The notes under the pieces are model-generated. The model was not told where the DNA came from and did no database searches. It saw nothing but the letters and a program-made list of their open reading frames with translations. The translations under genes and the position numbers were made by a program. Source: Spiractinospora alimapuensis (GTDB lineage: Bacteria > Actinomycetota > Actinomycetes > Streptosporangiales > Streptosporangiaceae). Taken from it: DNA of 64,000 nt. This document shows, piece after piece, positions 51,741 to 58,132 of this stretch; the first letter of the stretch is position 1, and the number at the start of each line of letters is the position of its first letter. The stretch covers positions 1,240,001-1,304,000 of the forward strand of contig NZ_CP072467.1 in the NCBI RefSeq assembly GCF_018437505.1. The letters are read 5' to 3'.

Positions 51741-52154
51741 GTGAGTGTGCTGGTCATAGTTCTGGGTCTTGCCGTTGTCGGTGCCGTCATGGCGGCCGCG
51801 CTCCTCGGCGGGACATTGCTCCGCGCCGGGGAGCGCGGGAAGGTCATGCGTGTGGGCCGGGTCGTGGCGACCCTCGCCCTCGTCGTCGGCGTGCCGACGA
51901 CCGCGGCCGTCGCGGTGCTGCGCTCGGCCCCTGACCCACTGTTCCTGCAGGTCTACGGGGCCGCGCTGCTGGTCGTCGTGGCTATCCTCGGCGTGAACGT
52001 GGCGCTCCCGACCGTGGCCGCACGGCGTTCCGGTGGCAAGAGCGCGACCACGGTCCCGCTGTCTCCCGCCGCGCTGAGTGTGGGTCTGCTGTGCGGGGCG
52101 TTGGTCGCGCTCCTGTGCTCAGGTGTCGCCGTCGCCGTGGTTCCCGTCGCCTGA
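51741..52154 (+). CDS. Small membrane protein of unknown function
   Basis: A 137-residue protein with four hydrophobic segments (VLVIVLGLAVVGAVMAAALL, VVATLALVVGVPTTAAVAVL, YGAALLVVVAILGVNVALP, ALSVGLLCGALVALLCSGVA) and short basic loops. CACAAT six bases before the GTG fits a leaderless start. Its end overlaps the convergent CopD-CtaG gene by 36 bases. No family recognised. Confidence 0.62.
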   Translation: MSVLVIVLGLAVVGAVMAAALLGGTLLRAGERGKVMRVGRVVATLALVVGVPTTAAVAVLRSAPDPLFLQVYGAALLVVVAILGVNVALPTVAARRSGGKSATTVPLSPAALSVGLLCGALVALLCSGVAVAVVPVA

Positions 52155-54323
52155 TCCTCCGGCCGCACCGGACTCGGCGACGGGTTCCCTGCTGGAGCTG
52201 TCCGCCGCGGGGGTTGGAGCCTGCCCGCGTGCCCGCCGGTCCAGGCGGGCGAGGTAGTCGTTGTAGGCGTCCAGGTCGGCGTCGTCGGAACCGCCGCGGC
52301 GGCTGTGGCGTTGGCGCCGGCGTTCGACGCGTTCGTCGTCACGGATCCACTGGTAGAGCACGGCGAACAGACACAGCACCGTGGGGATCTCGCCCATCGC
52401 CCACGCGATGCCGCCGCCGGTCTGCTGATCCTCCAGGACCGCCTCCGAGTAGCTCACGCCCTCGCTGAGCAGCCACGGCACTTCGAACGCCCCGTACCAC
52501 TGCATGGCGATCGGTTCGCCGATGCTCATGATCCCGATGCCGAAGAATGCGTGCAGACCCATCGTGAGCAGGAGCAGGAGCACCCGCAGCGGGTGGGGCA
52601 TGGATCGCGGCAGGGGGTCGACGCCGATGAGGATCCAGTAGAAGAGGTAGCCCACGATGATGAAGTGCAGGCTCATGAACATGTGCCCGGCCATGCTGAG
52701 CATGAGGGTGCCGAACAGTGGGGTGAAGTACAGCGCGTAGGTGCTGACCACGAACAGTGGGACGACGACGCCCGGGTGGGTCATGAAGTGGGCGAGCTTG
52801 CTGTTGAGCAGCAGGGTCAGCCACTCGCGAGGGCCGCGGTCGCCCCGGATCTTGGCGGGGTGCAACGCCCGGAGCGCGAGCGTCGCGGGACCACCGAGGA
52901 CGAGGAGGATCGGCGTCAGCATGGACAGCACCATGTGCTGCATCATGTGCACGCTGAACAGGACCATCGCGTAGGTGCCCACGCCGGTCAGCTTGACGGC
53001 CACGATGCTGAGCAAGCCGAGGAACCACGCGGCGGTGCGCCCCCAGGACCAGTGGTCGCCGCGGCGCCGCAGCCGTACGACGGCCGCCGCGTAGAGGCCG
53101 CCGAGGACCAGTACGAGCAGGAAGTAGAAGAGGTCCGGGCGCCACAGCGTCAGCAGGGTCTCCGCTGACATGGGCGGTGGCATCTCGAAGCCGAGGAGTT
53201 CCCGGGCCGGGTCGTAGGGGAGGTCGTACTCCGGAGGGCTGGTCCGACTCAACGCCACCGAGATGCCGAGGACCGTACCCATCAGGATGATCTCGCCGCC
53301 GGCGAGTCGCGCGAAGGCGCGGCGACCGCCCTCGGCGAGGCGGGGCAGCACCGACGAACGGTGCAGCCAGCCCAGGTAACCGAGAACACCGAAAAGCACG
53401 ATCTTGACGATGATCAGGTGGACGTAGGGGGAGTTGAGGAGCTCCACCAGGACGGCCTGGTTGACGAAGCCGTCCGAGGCGGCGAAGAGGTCCCCGAGTG
53501 TGGGCAGGTTCGCGATGGTGGTCGCCACCCCACTGACCCCGACGCCGATGTAGGCCCACAGGGCGATCGCGCTGAACCGGTTGGCGGCGATCGGCCCCGT
53601 CTTCCTGTCCCACTGGGTGGCGTGCCAGCAGAGTGCGGCGAGGCCGCCGATCCAGACGGTGATCGCGACGACGTGCAGCGCGACGCCGGTGATGGCCATC
53701 TCGTGGTTCGGTGAGGAGGCGGAGTGGCCGGTGAGGGGTGGCGGCAGCAGGCCGACCACGGACAGCGCCACCAGGCCGAGGGCTCCGCCTGGCGACTCCA
53801 CCGTTCGTGCCAACAGGGCCACCGCGGTCGCGACCAGCACCACGACCATGAGCGCGATGCCCTGGCTCGTCGATCCGGCGTAGCTGGTGAGCTGGTCACC
53901 GATCACCTCGGAGGGGGGCAGACCGAGGACGTCGGAGAGCTGGAAGACGAGCGTGGCGCCGCCGGCGACGGCCCAGACGATCGCGCACCAGGACGCCGCC
54001 CGGACGTAGCCCACGGCCCGAGGGGACAGGGCACCCTTGTTCAGGGGCAGCATGACGACGGCGAGGAGCAGCAGCCCGAGGGTGAGCGCGGCGGCGATGT
54101 TCAGCGCCGTCTTGGTCACCGGCAGGCCCCAGCGGGTGAGCATTCCCGCGTCGGGGAGCCCCGGGACCAGTGGCGCGGTGGCGACTCCCCCGGCGAAGAG
54201 GGCACCGATCAGCCCCGCCAGGCAGGCCACGCCGGCGGCGACGGCCACGACCACGCCGCGACGTCGGGGCCCCGTCGGACGTTCCTCGGTCTGGGAACCG
54301 TCGGAGGTGCTGAGGGAAGCCAC
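52119..54323 (-). CDS. CopD-CtaG (caa3_CtaG) fusion membrane protein
   Basis: A 734-residue polytopic protein. The N-terminal half (to about 370) is CopD-like with paired histidines in LPPPLTGHSASSPNHEMAI and HVVAITVWIGGLAALCWH. The C-terminal half (about 390-680) is a CtaG/caa3 assembly domain with FSVHMMQHMVLSMLTP and SLHFIIVGYLFYWILIGVDP. CopD handles copper import or resistance; caa3_CtaG helps deliver copper to cytochrome oxidase. The charged C-terminal tail is cytoplasmic. GGAGAG precedes the GTG. The fusion is known in actinomycetes; csoR lies 5.5 kb away, not adjacent. Confidence 0.88.
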   Translation of the reverse strand: MASLSTSDGSQTEERPTGPRRRGVVVAVAAGVACLAGLIGALFAGGVATAPLVPGLPDAGMLTRWGLPVTKTALNIAAALTLGLLLLAVVMLPLNKGALSPRAVGYVRAASWCAIVWAVAGGATLVFQLSDVLGLPPSEVIGDQLTSYAGSTSQGIALMVVVLVATAVALLARTVESPGGALGLVALSVVGLLPPPLTGHSASSPNHEMAITGVALHVVAITVWIGGLAALCWHATQWDRKTGPIAANRFSAIALWAYIGVGVSGVATTIANLPTLGDLFAASDGFVNQAVLVELLNSPYVHLIIVKIVLFGVLGYLGWLHRSSVLPRLAEGGRRAFARLAGGEIILMGTVLGISVALSRTSPPEYDLPYDPARELLGFEMPPPMSAETLLTLWRPDLFYFLLVLVLGGLYAAAVVRLRRRGDHWSWGRTAAWFLGLLSIVAVKLTGVGTYAMVLFSVHMMQHMVLSMLTPILLVLGGPATLALRALHPAKIRGDRGPREWLTLLLNSKLAHFMTHPGVVVPLFVVSTYALYFTPLFGTLMLSMAGHMFMSLHFIIVGYLFYWILIGVDPLPRSMPHPLRVLLLLLTMGLHAFFGIGIMSIGEPIAMQWYGAFEVPWLLSEGVSYSEAVLEDQQTGGGIAWAMGEIPTVLCLFAVLYQWIRDDERVERRRQRHSRRGGSDDADLDAYNDYLARLDRRARGQAPTPAADSSSREPVAESGAAGGSGDGNHGDGDT

Positions 54324-54594
54324 GAACTCTCCACTGAGTTGGGAAACGGATCATCGTCCACGTTGGTCGACCCGCCGAGGAGCCCACACGGCCAGGTCGG
54401 GCCGGATGTCCAGCACGGATCGCCACAGCGACGCGAGGTTCGGCCCCAGCCTAACCAACTACTACAACGTGTCGGATCCGGCTCCCGGACCAGAGGCGGC
54501 CCGTCGTCTGGCGCGTCGGGTCGCCGGCCGCCACAGTAGAGGGGTCCAAGGCCGCGTCAACGAGGACGTGGCCCCTCTCACAAGGAGGAACACA

Positions 54595-55716
54595 GTGCGT
54601 GTTGGCGTACCCAAGGAAGTGAAGAACCACGAGTACAGGGTCGCGACAACTCCGGCTGGAGTGCATGAGCTCGTCCGTGACGGCCACGAGGTCGTGGTCC
54701 AGGAGGGCGCCGGTGCGGGCTCCTCGATTCCCGACACGGAGTACGTGTCGGCGGGCGCTCGGGTCGTGCCGGACGCCGCGACGGTCTGGGAGTCCAGCGA
54801 TCTGGTGTGGAAGGTGAAGGAGCCGGTCGCCTCCGAGTTCGCGCTCATGCGCGAAGGTCAGCTCCTCTTCACCTACCTGCACCTCGCGGCCTCGAAGGAG
54901 TGCACCCAGGCGCTGCTGGAGCACAAGGTCACCGCTGTCGCCTACGAGACGGTGCAGACCGCGGACGGCGGACTGCCGTTGCTCGCCCCCATGTCGGAGA
55001 TCGCCGGCCGGCTCGCGCCACAGGCGGGGGCACAGACGCTGCTCAGTGTGGACGGCGGGCGGGGTGTCCTGATGGGGGGTGTCCCCGGAGTTCGCCCGGC
55101 CCAGGTCACGATCCTGGGAGCGGGTGTGGCGGGCCTGAACGCGGCGCGCGTGGCCCTCGGAATGGGCGCCGAGGTCACCCTCCTGGACGTGAGCACGCCG
55201 AAGCTGCGTCACGCCGACGAGCTGTTCCAGGGCCGCGTACGTACTCTGGCCTCCAACACCTACTCGGTGGAGAGCACCGTCCTGGAGTCCGATCTGGTGA
55301 TCGGCGCGGTCCTGCTGCCCGGCGCGAAGGCCCCGACCTTGGTCTCCAACGAACTGGTCTCGCGGATGCGCCCCGGGTCGGTACTGGTCGACATCGCCGT
55401 CGACCAGGGTGGCTGCTTCGCGGACACTCGCCCCACCACTTACGACGCCCCCTCCTATCCCGTGCGCGGATCGTTGTTCTACTGCGTGGCCAACATGCCC
55501 GGAGCCGTCCCGCACACCTCGACCCACGCCCTCACCAAGGACACGTTGCCCTTCGCCCACGCCCTCGCCGACCGCGGGTGGCGCCACGCGATGGCCGAGG
55601 ACCCCCGGCTCGCCCGCGGACTGAACACCCACGCGGGTGTCGTGACCAACACCGCCGTGGCCGAGGCACACGGCCTGCCCGCCATGTCCGTCGCCGAGGC
55701 CCTCACCGAGGGCTGA
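54595..55716 (+). CDS. ald: Alanine dehydrogenase
   Basis: A 373-residue NAD-dependent enzyme interconverting alanine with pyruvate plus ammonia. Signatures: MRVGVPKEVKNHEYRVATTP with the substrate-binding arginine, LVWKVKEP with the lysine, LFTYLHLAAS with the histidine, TILGAGVAGLNAARVALG for NAD binding and VDIAVDQGGCFADTRPTT. AAGGAGG about seven bases before the GTG decides the start. In mycobacteria ald is induced by its own activator during starvation; no regulator is adjacent here. Confidence 0.94.
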   Translation: MRVGVPKEVKNHEYRVATTPAGVHELVRDGHEVVVQEGAGAGSSIPDTEYVSAGARVVPDAATVWESSDLVWKVKEPVASEFALMREGQLLFTYLHLAASKECTQALLEHKVTAVAYETVQTADGGLPLLAPMSEIAGRLAPQAGAQTLLSVDGGRGVLMGGVPGVRPAQVTILGAGVAGLNAARVALGMGAEVTLLDVSTPKLRHADELFQGRVRTLASNTYSVESTVLESDLVIGAVLLPGAKAPTLVSNELVSRMRPGSVLVDIAVDQGGCFADTRPTTYDAPSYPVRGSLFYCVANMPGAVPHTSTHALTKDTLPFAHALADRGWRHAMAEDPRLARGLNTHAGVVTNTAVAEAHGLPAMSVAEALTEG

Positions 55717-56510: not shown

Positions 56511-57620
56511 GTGGCACGCACAGAGTCCCAAGGGACGCTCACGCGCCTCGCGGCGGTCCAGGTGAGCCGCGTCCGCGTCCCGGACTCCGCGCGGCAGCGG
56601 CAGGACCACATCCTGGTGCGAGTCGAGGACGATCTGGGGCGGACGGGCTGGGGCGAGGTCCCGCGGGCGAGTGGCGCGGAGGGTGACGAGCTCTGGGACC
56701 ACCTGGTGGGGCGGTTCGTTCCAACGCTGCTGAGTCACTCCTGGCAGCGCCCCACCGAGGTGCCCGACCTGTTCCGTCCACTGCCGTTCGTGCCCGCGGT
56801 CCAGGGCGCGTTGGACAGCGCCTGCTGGGACCTGTGGGCGCGCCGCAGGGGAACCCCGCTGGCACACGCCCTGGGCGGCACCCGCACCGCCATCACCGCC
56901 GGGGTCACGGTCCGCCAGTTCGCCAGCCCCGAGGCGACGGTGAGCGAGGTCAACCGGCAGGTCGGCGCGGGGATCCGTCGGGTCCGGCTGGACGTGGCGC
57001 CCGGTCGGGACGTCGACGTCGTGCGGGCCGTACGCACGGCCTACCCGTTCCTGGCGCTCCAGGTGCACTGCGGTGGCCGCTACCAGGGGGCCGAACACCT
57101 GGAGAGCCTACGCGTCCTGGACACCTTCGACCTGCTGGCGATCGAGGACCCCTACGGAACCGATCTGGCCGCCCACGCGGAGCTGCGCCGCGAGCTGCGC
57201 ACACCGCTCGCGCTGGGGGCCGCCATCGACTCCCTGGAGGCGTTGGAGGCGGCGGTGCGAGCGGAGGCGGCCAACGCCGTCAACCTGTCCATCTCCCGGG
57301 TGGGTGGGTTGACGCCGGCCCGCCGCATCCACGACCGTGCGCGCGACGCCAGTTGGGACGTGTGGTGCGGGTCCGACGACGAGACGGGTCTCGGCCGATC
57401 GATGACCGTCGCTCTCGCCTCCCTCCCAGGGGTGACCCTGCCGAGCGACATGCCCGGCGCCGGCACTCGCCGCTCCCCCGCCCTCACGCTGGTGGAGCCC
57501 GCGGTGCGGGTCCACGACGGTGTCGTGGGCGTACCGTTGACGCGTCCGGGCTCGGGGCACGAGATCGACCTGGACGCGCTGCGTCGCATGACCGTCACCC
57601 AGACGACGCTGCGCGCCTGA
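56511..57620 (+). CDS. Enolase-superfamily protein, OSBS/NAAAR-like, with lost catalytic residues
   Basis: A 369-residue protein with the full two-domain fold of o-succinylbenzoate synthase/N-acylamino acid racemase: an N-terminal capping domain, then a barrel from about 125. GGAGG seven bases before the GTG supports the start. Aligned by eye to the family, the K-x-K lysines become R159 and D161, the first metal aspartate H186, and the third metal ligand G236. The lysine after strand six becomes S260. Only E212 of IEDP remains, though RVGGLTPARRIHD and ETGLGR around the site are kept. It is probably a pseudoenzyme or has a new chemistry. No menaquinone gene is near. Confidence 0.8.
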   Translation: MARTESQGTLTRLAAVQVSRVRVPDSARQRQDHILVRVEDDLGRTGWGEVPRASGAEGDELWDHLVGRFVPTLLSHSWQRPTEVPDLFRPLPFVPAVQGALDSACWDLWARRRGTPLAHALGGTRTAITAGVTVRQFASPEATVSEVNRQVGAGIRRVRLDVAPGRDVDVVRAVRTAYPFLALQVHCGGRYQGAEHLESLRVLDTFDLLAIEDPYGTDLAAHAELRRELRTPLALGAAIDSLEALEAAVRAEAANAVNLSISRVGGLTPARRIHDRARDASWDVWCGSDDETGLGRSMTVALASLPGVTLPSDMPGAGTRRSPALTLVEPAVRVHDGVVGVPLTRPGSGHEIDLDALRRMTVTQTTLRA

Positions 57621-57709: not shown

Positions 57710-58132
57710 TTGACGCTGTATGAGGTGCAGGCTCGCAAGTGGGAGAACGGCTGGGAGCTCCGTGTCGACGGGGCGGGACAGACGTGGTCCCCGTCGCTGG
57801 ACGACGCCGAGGCTCGGGTGCGTGAGCACATCCAGTCCGCGGGAGCGTCGAAGGGCGCTGTGCACGTCACGCTGGTGCCGCGCGTGGACGACGACACCGA
57901 CCGTCTCGCCCTGGAGGCGCGACGGGCCGTCGCCGCCGCCGACGAGGCCACTCGGGACGCGGTGAGCAAGACGCGTGACGCCGTGCAGGGGATGAGCGCG
58001 GCCGGGCTGCCGCCCAACGACATCGCCCGGATCCTGGAGATCTCGCCCGGCCGGTTGGCGGAGCTGACCGCGGAGAGCGCGCCGGACGGCCGGGACGAAC
58101 CCCGGTTGCCGCAGCGTCGCCGGCGGCAGTGA
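57710..58132 (+). CDS. HicB-like small protein with helical C-terminus
   Basis: A 140-residue protein. The first 60 residues, starting MTLYEVQARKWENGWELRVD with a DDAEARVREHI helix, resemble the partial RNase-H-like HicB antitoxin fold. The second half has ARRAVAAADEATRDAVSKTR and then AGLPPNDIARILEISPGRLA, a probable helix-turn-helix. No HicA toxin gene lies beside it. GGGGAGAG precedes the TTG start. It may be a stand-alone regulator; confidence in the fold is moderate. Confidence 0.6.
   Translation: MTLYEVQARKWENGWELRVDGAGQTWSPSLDDAEARVREHIQSAGASKGAVHVTLVPRVDDDTDRLALEARRAVAAADEATRDAVSKTRDAVQGMSAAGLPPNDIARILEISPGRLAELTAESAPDGRDEPRLPQRRRRQ

Follow-up and report, generated by a model that had tools for sequence, protein, structure and literature searches.

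A lysine-free enolase-superfamily protein of Spiractinospora alimapuensis belongs to an old clade of probable pseudoenzymes in Streptosporangiales

Analysis of a 64,000-nucleotide stretch of the Spiractinospora alimapuensis genome, referred to here as the window, revealed a gene for a protein that has the fold and ancestry of the NSAR/OSBS enzymes of the enolase superfamily and has lost most of their active site. This protein is probably an ancient pseudoenzyme that acts as an oligomeric scaffold or regulator, following the loss of NSAR/OSBS catalysis in an ancestor. The gene and the codons of its five key positions, the latter assigned by alignment and counted from the GTG start, are located in the window as follows.

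56511..57620, forward strand: pseudo-NSAR/OSBS of the enolase superfamily, 369 amino acids, GTG start; D161/H186/G236/S260 in place of K/D/D/K, E212 retained, lysine-free
56991..56993, forward strand: codon of D161, the catalytic lysine in NSAR/OSBS
57066..57068, forward strand: codon of H186, the first metal-ligand aspartate in NSAR/OSBS
57144..57146, forward strand: codon of E212, the second metal ligand and the sole one kept
57216..57218, forward strand: codon of G236, the third metal-ligand aspartate in NSAR/OSBS
57288..57290, forward strand: codon of S260, the second catalytic lysine in NSAR/OSBS

The open reading frame runs from the GTG codon at 56511 to a stop codon at 57618-57620, and its third-position GC content (0.90) is similar to that of the neighbouring genes. 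The predicted product exceeds the Pfam cut-offs for both parts of the MR/MLE architecture, the N-terminal capping domain (MR_MLE_N, 25.5 bits, cut-off 22) and the modified TIM barrel (MR_MLE_C, 112.1 bits, cut-off 29.4). Among NCBIfam models the top match is TIGR01928 (o-succinylbenzoate synthase), whose cut-off of 200.65 bits is not reached by the window protein (174.8 bits) and is exceeded by an intact relative (L033, 297.2 bits). Among proteins of solved structure the nearest relatives are N-acylamino acid racemases (NAAAR), NSAR and OSBS, the Deinococcus NAAAR matching at E 1.7e-50. A structural model predicted with 75 sequences (mean pLDDT 94.4, pTM 0.92) resembles NAAAR structures with a TM-score of about 0.90 and Z of 47-48.6. 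The likeness extends over the whole length of the enzymes from Deinococcus (1r0m, 2ggj), Thermus (2zc8) and Amycolatopsis (1sja, 7s8w), with TM 0.89-0.91, Z 47.6-48.5 and 31-34% identity. The kinship to OSBS and NAAAR proposed in the original prediction was therefore recovered by family, sequence and fold searches, and the flanking motifs which it described as preserved (IEDP, RVGG and ETGLGR) were all located in the protein.

The likeness does not extend to the active site. Alignments with the Deinococcus NAAAR place K, D, E, D and K opposite D161, H186, E212, G236 and S260, respectively, and inspection of these residues in place confirmed the assignment, reading frame, start and numbering given in the original prediction. 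An extra loss, beyond the five positions considered there, was found at position 159, the first lysine of the KxK motif, which is an arginine in the window protein. At the ends of the barrel strands, where three acidic metal ligands are found in enolase-superfamily enzymes, the protein has H186, E212 and G236; it is thus a member of the superfamily by fold and descent, not by active site. It also departs from the NSAR/OSBS family of TIGR01928 in three respects, namely the family cut-off, the two catalytic lysines and the length of the loop following E49. Not one of the 369 residues is a lysine, compared with 4-25 lysines per protein in the 55 intact homologues. There is consequently no alternative lysine able to substitute, and the possibility that the alignment had misplaced the lysines was rejected for the same reason.

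Homologues were collected from related genomes. In the first sample, 24 genomes among 60 relatives matched at E ≤ 1e-60, and in a survey of the family 313 of 341 genomes matched at E ≤ 1e-35, a count that includes intact paralogues. The 240 extracted sequences were reduced to 166 rows after identical and contained ones were dropped. These comprise 66 rows of group A, 44 rows of group B, one sequence from Allonocardiopsis and 55 intact homologues. Group A was defined by the 68 rows of the match table at E ≤ 2.2e-100, including the window's own; the others are 54-61% identical to it (counted by hand) and come from Nocardiopsis, Thermobifida, Streptomonospora, Marinactinospora and their relatives. 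Group B, with about 40-48% identity, includes Actinomadura, Thermomonospora, Actinoallomurus and other genera of the family, and its size is expressed in rows rather than genomes, since the sequences were drawn from part of the matched genomes.

None of the 111 distinct degenerate Streptosporangiales sequences retains both catalytic lysines. A single lysine is present in three of them: K161 in one group A row and one group B row, and K260 in one group B row. In group A (65 rows) R159 and E212 are invariant, D186 is found in 54 rows, position 161 is E in 51 rows and D in three, and position 260 is D in 34 rows and R in 23. In group B (45 rows when Allonocardiopsis is counted in) T159 and D186 are invariant, E212 is found in 42 rows and R260 in 39, and residues 236-237 are shortened or altered. 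The D/E/D metal trio is complete in seven of 66 group A rows and 14 of 44 group B rows, and in 28 of the latter each of the three ligand positions is occupied by D, E or N. All 55 intact rows have K159, K161, D186, E212, D236 and K260, but 'intact' was defined by the five catalytic residues, so that these counts are true by definition and the independent statement comes from the phylogenetic trees. The complete absence of lysine from the protein is also common in the degenerate groups (33 of 66 rows in A, 20 of 44 in B). In three rows E212 is gone too, being replaced by R, A and Q in L185, L186 and L188, respectively.

Aligning orthologues had been suggested in the original prediction as a check on whether the substituted residues are themselves conserved. 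The loss of the lysines proved to be shared, and a lone decay of the window copy among intact orthologues was accordingly rejected; the substituting residues H186 and D161 are not conserved. H186 occurs in the window copy alone (1/65 group A rows) and D161 in 3/65, which makes the suggested new chemistry with these two residues unlikely. The window copy is among the more degraded: it has lost four of the five catalytic residues, an extent shared by at most eight of 66 group A rows.

Phylogenetic trees were built without the nine key columns. In the FastTree phylogeny of 166 rows the 111 degenerate sequences fall on one side of a single branch, separated from the 55 intact ones with support 99, and the same split was obtained in trees of 96 (SH-aLRT 99) and 57 (100/98.7) of these rows. 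The closest intact rows originate from Streptosporangiales bins and Thermomonosporaceae; the intact Streptosporangiales NSAR-type proteins on the nearest intact branches (L184, L197, L198 and L211) have K/D/E/D/K. Catalytic residues have therefore been lost across an orthologous group, on one branch, and not in one copy, as expected of a pseudoenzyme. A single loss of the lysines would be the best reading of these trees, separate losses being disfavoured. When group A or B was instead joined to intact neighbours, AU tests of the resulting trees gave p = 0.063, 0.048 and 0.0098, values to be read with the long branches in play. The window copy has the longest end branch, but in this genome the alanine dehydrogenase (Ald, start approximate) and CtaG are likewise the most distant, each among 45 rows. 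The long branch therefore reflects divergence of the whole lineage rather than of this gene specifically, and the idea that the window copy is eroding alone after the loss of a partner was rejected.

The gene does not encode the OSBS of the cell. A separate MenC (L008, 322 amino acids), also an OSBS of the enolase superfamily, is encoded elsewhere in the genome and, unlike the window protein, passes the cut-off of its family (440 bits against 288), being best scored by another MenC model; it adjoins a MenB-like open reading frame, named so by its appearance rather than by a family search. The window gene was thus rejected as the MenC of the cell. An intact NSAR-type paralogue was not found in the window genome, where the family search returned one match only, so there is no intact NSAR twin with which a mixed oligomer could form. 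Across the family, intact NSAR-type genes (E ≤ 1e-95) are uncommon, 23 of 338 genomes having them.

The genomic context of the pseudo-NSAR gene was compared in 48 named group A loci, with flanks of up to 8 kb where the contig permits. Three neighbouring genes in the window are relevant.

52119..54323, reverse strand: CtaG/CopD-like membrane protein, a syntenic landmark matched in 47/48 group A loci
54580..55716, forward strand: alanine dehydrogenase, upstream neighbour (TIGR00518, 528 bits; family match, start approximate)
57710..58132, forward strand: 140-amino acid open reading frame unmatched in Pfam and NCBIfam, starting 89 bp after the pseudoenzyme gene, relatives in 12/48 group A loci

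The neighbours of the group A genes include alanine dehydrogenase (46 of the 48 loci), CtaG (47), a MaoC-like protein (46) and an allantoinase-like protein (48). The early-branching Allonocardiopsis has the pseudo-NSAR beside alanine dehydrogenase and the allantoinase-like gene, and CtaG and MaoC were unmatched at its locus. The distance between the alanine dehydrogenase and pseudo-NSAR genes varies from 124 to 2380 bp in group A loci, which does not suggest one tight operon, and the gene order, with CtaG conserved as well in 47/48 loci, indicates that the linkage in group A is mostly inherited synteny. PMC10520107 yielded no locus tag for the neighbouring gene in Thermobifida fusca.

In group B (22 named loci) the neighbours are an IMPDH-like gene (21), LytR-CpsA-Psr genes (18) and an AsnC-type regulator (19); since they differ from those of group A, no partner is common to the whole clade. 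The Cys loop is present in all 23 IMPDH-like proteins read, and neither the IMPDH-like nor the LytR-CpsA-Psr neighbours pointed to a function. In Actinomadura and relatives (e.g. L187 and L190) the pseudo-NSAR gene lies next to LytR-CpsA-Psr genes and to an IMPDH-like gene whose product has CBS domains. The nine named intact loci differ in context from the window gene, being associated with genes for a GNAT protein (9), an M20 peptidase (7) and a D-aminoacylase-like protein (6). The N-succinylamino acid route turns D- into L-amino acids, and the context of the intact loci fits this known route.

The allantoinase-like gene linked to group A lies, in the relatives, upstream of alanine dehydrogenase, between it and CtaG. 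Its product (L157:4861-6240) scores 247 bits against TIGR03178, below the cut-off of 357.85, and its best matches among solved structures are allantoinases. Neither histidine of the HxH motif is kept in any of the 46 readable copies from the 48 loci, nor is the carboxylated lysine (0/46), and the metal-binding aspartate is replaced by glycine in 48/48. As controls, HVH, K and D are present in the window genome's own allantoinase (L269) and in all 19 allantoinases sampled from genomes of the family that lie outside group A. Nine close pairs of the allantoinase-like protein gave dN/dS values of 0.178-0.451. At one locus of a Nocardiopsaceae strain (L143:4629-5838) it matches in two overlapping frames and is seemingly frameshifted. 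The pseudo-allantoinase is absent from the window genome, where a whole-genome search recovered the intact allantoinase, one dihydroorotase-like gene and nothing else; in the window (52119-55716) CtaG directly adjoins alanine dehydrogenase, with no pseudo-allantoinase between them. These comparisons indicate that two unrelated metabolic enzymes became conserved pseudoenzymes at one locus, of which the window carries a reduced form.

For group A, the simplest proposal would be regulation or scaffolding around alanine dehydrogenase. A more speculative elaboration, possible but less likely than not, is that the pseudo-NSAR and pseudo-allantoinase form a module of dead enzymes around the intact alanine dehydrogenase, a complex which would control or organise alanine/nitrogen metabolism in the Nocardiopsis lineage; the dead racemase would be older, and in the lineages of Actinomadura and of Streptosporangium type it would work with different partners.

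The conservation of the old pocket was compared with that of the rest of the protein using an active-site shell of 17 positions, picked from the alignment and from known NSAR structures. In intact proteins the shell is the most conserved part, with a mean entropy of 0.06 versus 1.34 for 314 core positions. In group A the values are 1.36 versus 1.02 and in group B 1.23 versus 1.11, and 94% (A) and 72% (B) of random position sets are at least as conserved as the shell. Within it, R159 or T159, E212 and, in group B, D186 are kept. Part of the positions listed as gaining constraint in the dead clade may reflect a broader intact set. The segment from E49 to W62 is 17 residues long in 55/55 intact proteins, 8 in 64/66 group A rows, 7-14 in most of group B and 12 in the window protein. 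Only this loop after E49 was used, since the length counts of the 20s loop in group B are an alignment artefact, which was no cleaner on repetition. Together the comparisons indicate that the dead clade has preserved the protein body, with relaxation of the pocket.

These data bear on two explanations in which the pocket would still be in use. The first, which appears unlikely, is that the protein is a repurposed enzyme, with a lysine-free barrel chemistry performed by D186/E212 and R260, or by an R237/D260 pair in Nocardiopsis. It draws on the conservation of E212 (65/65 in A), D186 (99/110 rows of A and B), R159 (65/65 in A) and T159 (45/45 in B) and on the presence of R or D at position 260 in most rows; R260 in particular is common (23/65 in A, 39/45 in B), so that some reaction might still be carried out by another set of residues. 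However, the shell is as variable as random positions and the E49 loop has been shortened. Several pocket sets also exist within group A, including R237/D260 (35/66) and T237/R260 (14/66), and both D186 and R260 are missing from the window copy. The joint occurrence of R237 with D260 in 35 of 66 group A rows, and of T or D237 with R260 in 19, resembles a charge swap across the old pocket; this pattern is probably one event in the Nocardiopsis branch.

A second explanation, which we consider rather improbable, is that an N-acylamino acid- or alanine-related metabolite binds in the old pocket and switches the binding of a partner. Ligand binding persists in some pseudoenzymes, according to PMC10415035. 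The gene is linked to that of an amino acid enzyme, and the wide retention of D186 and E212 could be the trace of a remaining site for a ligand or metal, particularly in group B. Against such a sensor, the entropy of the pocket is not below background in either group, which weighs against a conserved ligand, and the D/E/D trio is complete in only a minority of rows, as noted above.

In the clade the protein body has remained under constraint, as the original prediction held for the fold. In close pairs analysed by a simple counting method (nine pairs for each group), dN/dS was 0.107-0.421 in group A, 0.186-0.383 in group B and 0.152-0.248 in intact proteins, the degenerate ranges overlapping the intact one. 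Purifying selection after the loss is seen in relatives of the window copy, namely the 18 close pairs of A and B, which share the loss. It is very improbable that the gene is a functionless relic heading for disappearance. The extent of residue loss and the long end branch of the window copy, together with the departure of the pseudo-allantoinase from the genome, would suit a relic, but the open frame and coding signature are retained, no internal stop occurs in any of the 68 group A match rows, close pairs are under purifying selection and the long branch is common to Ald and CtaG. That the protein is still an NSAR/OSBS working through other residues is scarcely credible: NSAR/OSBS is its closest family in family, sequence and fold searches, but it has no lysine, has lost two of three metal ligands and falls short of the family cut-off, and known NSAR/OSBS enzymes rely on a pair of lysines, as stated in PMC8142540.

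Among the roles originally suggested, a scaffold is left as the likeliest, to which a regulatory role is added here, and the chemistry through H186 and D161 is not supported. The reading favoured here, that of a non-catalytic scaffold or regulator, may be set out as follows. A racemase of NSAR/OSBS type, present in an ancestor of much of the Streptosporangiales, would have lost both catalytic lysines; the metal ligands and the substrate-capping loop would have eroded afterwards, to varying degree, while the barrel and the N-terminal domain remained constrained. The window protein would then catalyse neither N-acylamino acid racemisation nor o-succinylbenzoate synthesis, the latter being carried out by the separate MenC. 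This agrees with the prediction that racemase and synthase chemistry should be impossible, as far as the known two-lysine, metal-dependent route is concerned. Its function would lie in the protein body, which would serve as an oligomeric scaffold or regulate partner proteins, and in the Nocardiopsis-type lineage the likely partners would be alanine dehydrogenase and, where present, the pseudo-allantoinase.

Compared with the NAAAR/NSAR/OSBS enzymes of known structure, the window protein is distinguished by the lack of both catalytic lysines and of two of three metal ligands, and by its shorter E49 loop. A parallel is offered by the animal CRMPs (dihydropyrimidinase-related proteins), which have the hydantoinase/allantoinase fold, lack catalysis and work as protein-binding scaffolds. 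The pseudo-allantoinase has weak matches to DRP-1, -2 and -5, and the comparison is made as a parallel only, with no direct relation claimed. Kinases, proteases and phosphatases include well-known pseudoenzymes. No enolase-superfamily pseudoenzyme clade was found described in the open-access papers searched, and the words enolase and racemase are absent from two pseudoenzyme reviews (PMC10211241, PMC5106787), which is weak evidence of novelty.

Genes of the dead clade risk being named as racemase or OSBS from similarity alone. The clade spans many genera and provides natural replicates of an active site after the loss of catalysis, beside intact sisters. Two dead enzymes encoded beside alanine dehydrogenase provide a possible complex that can be tested directly.
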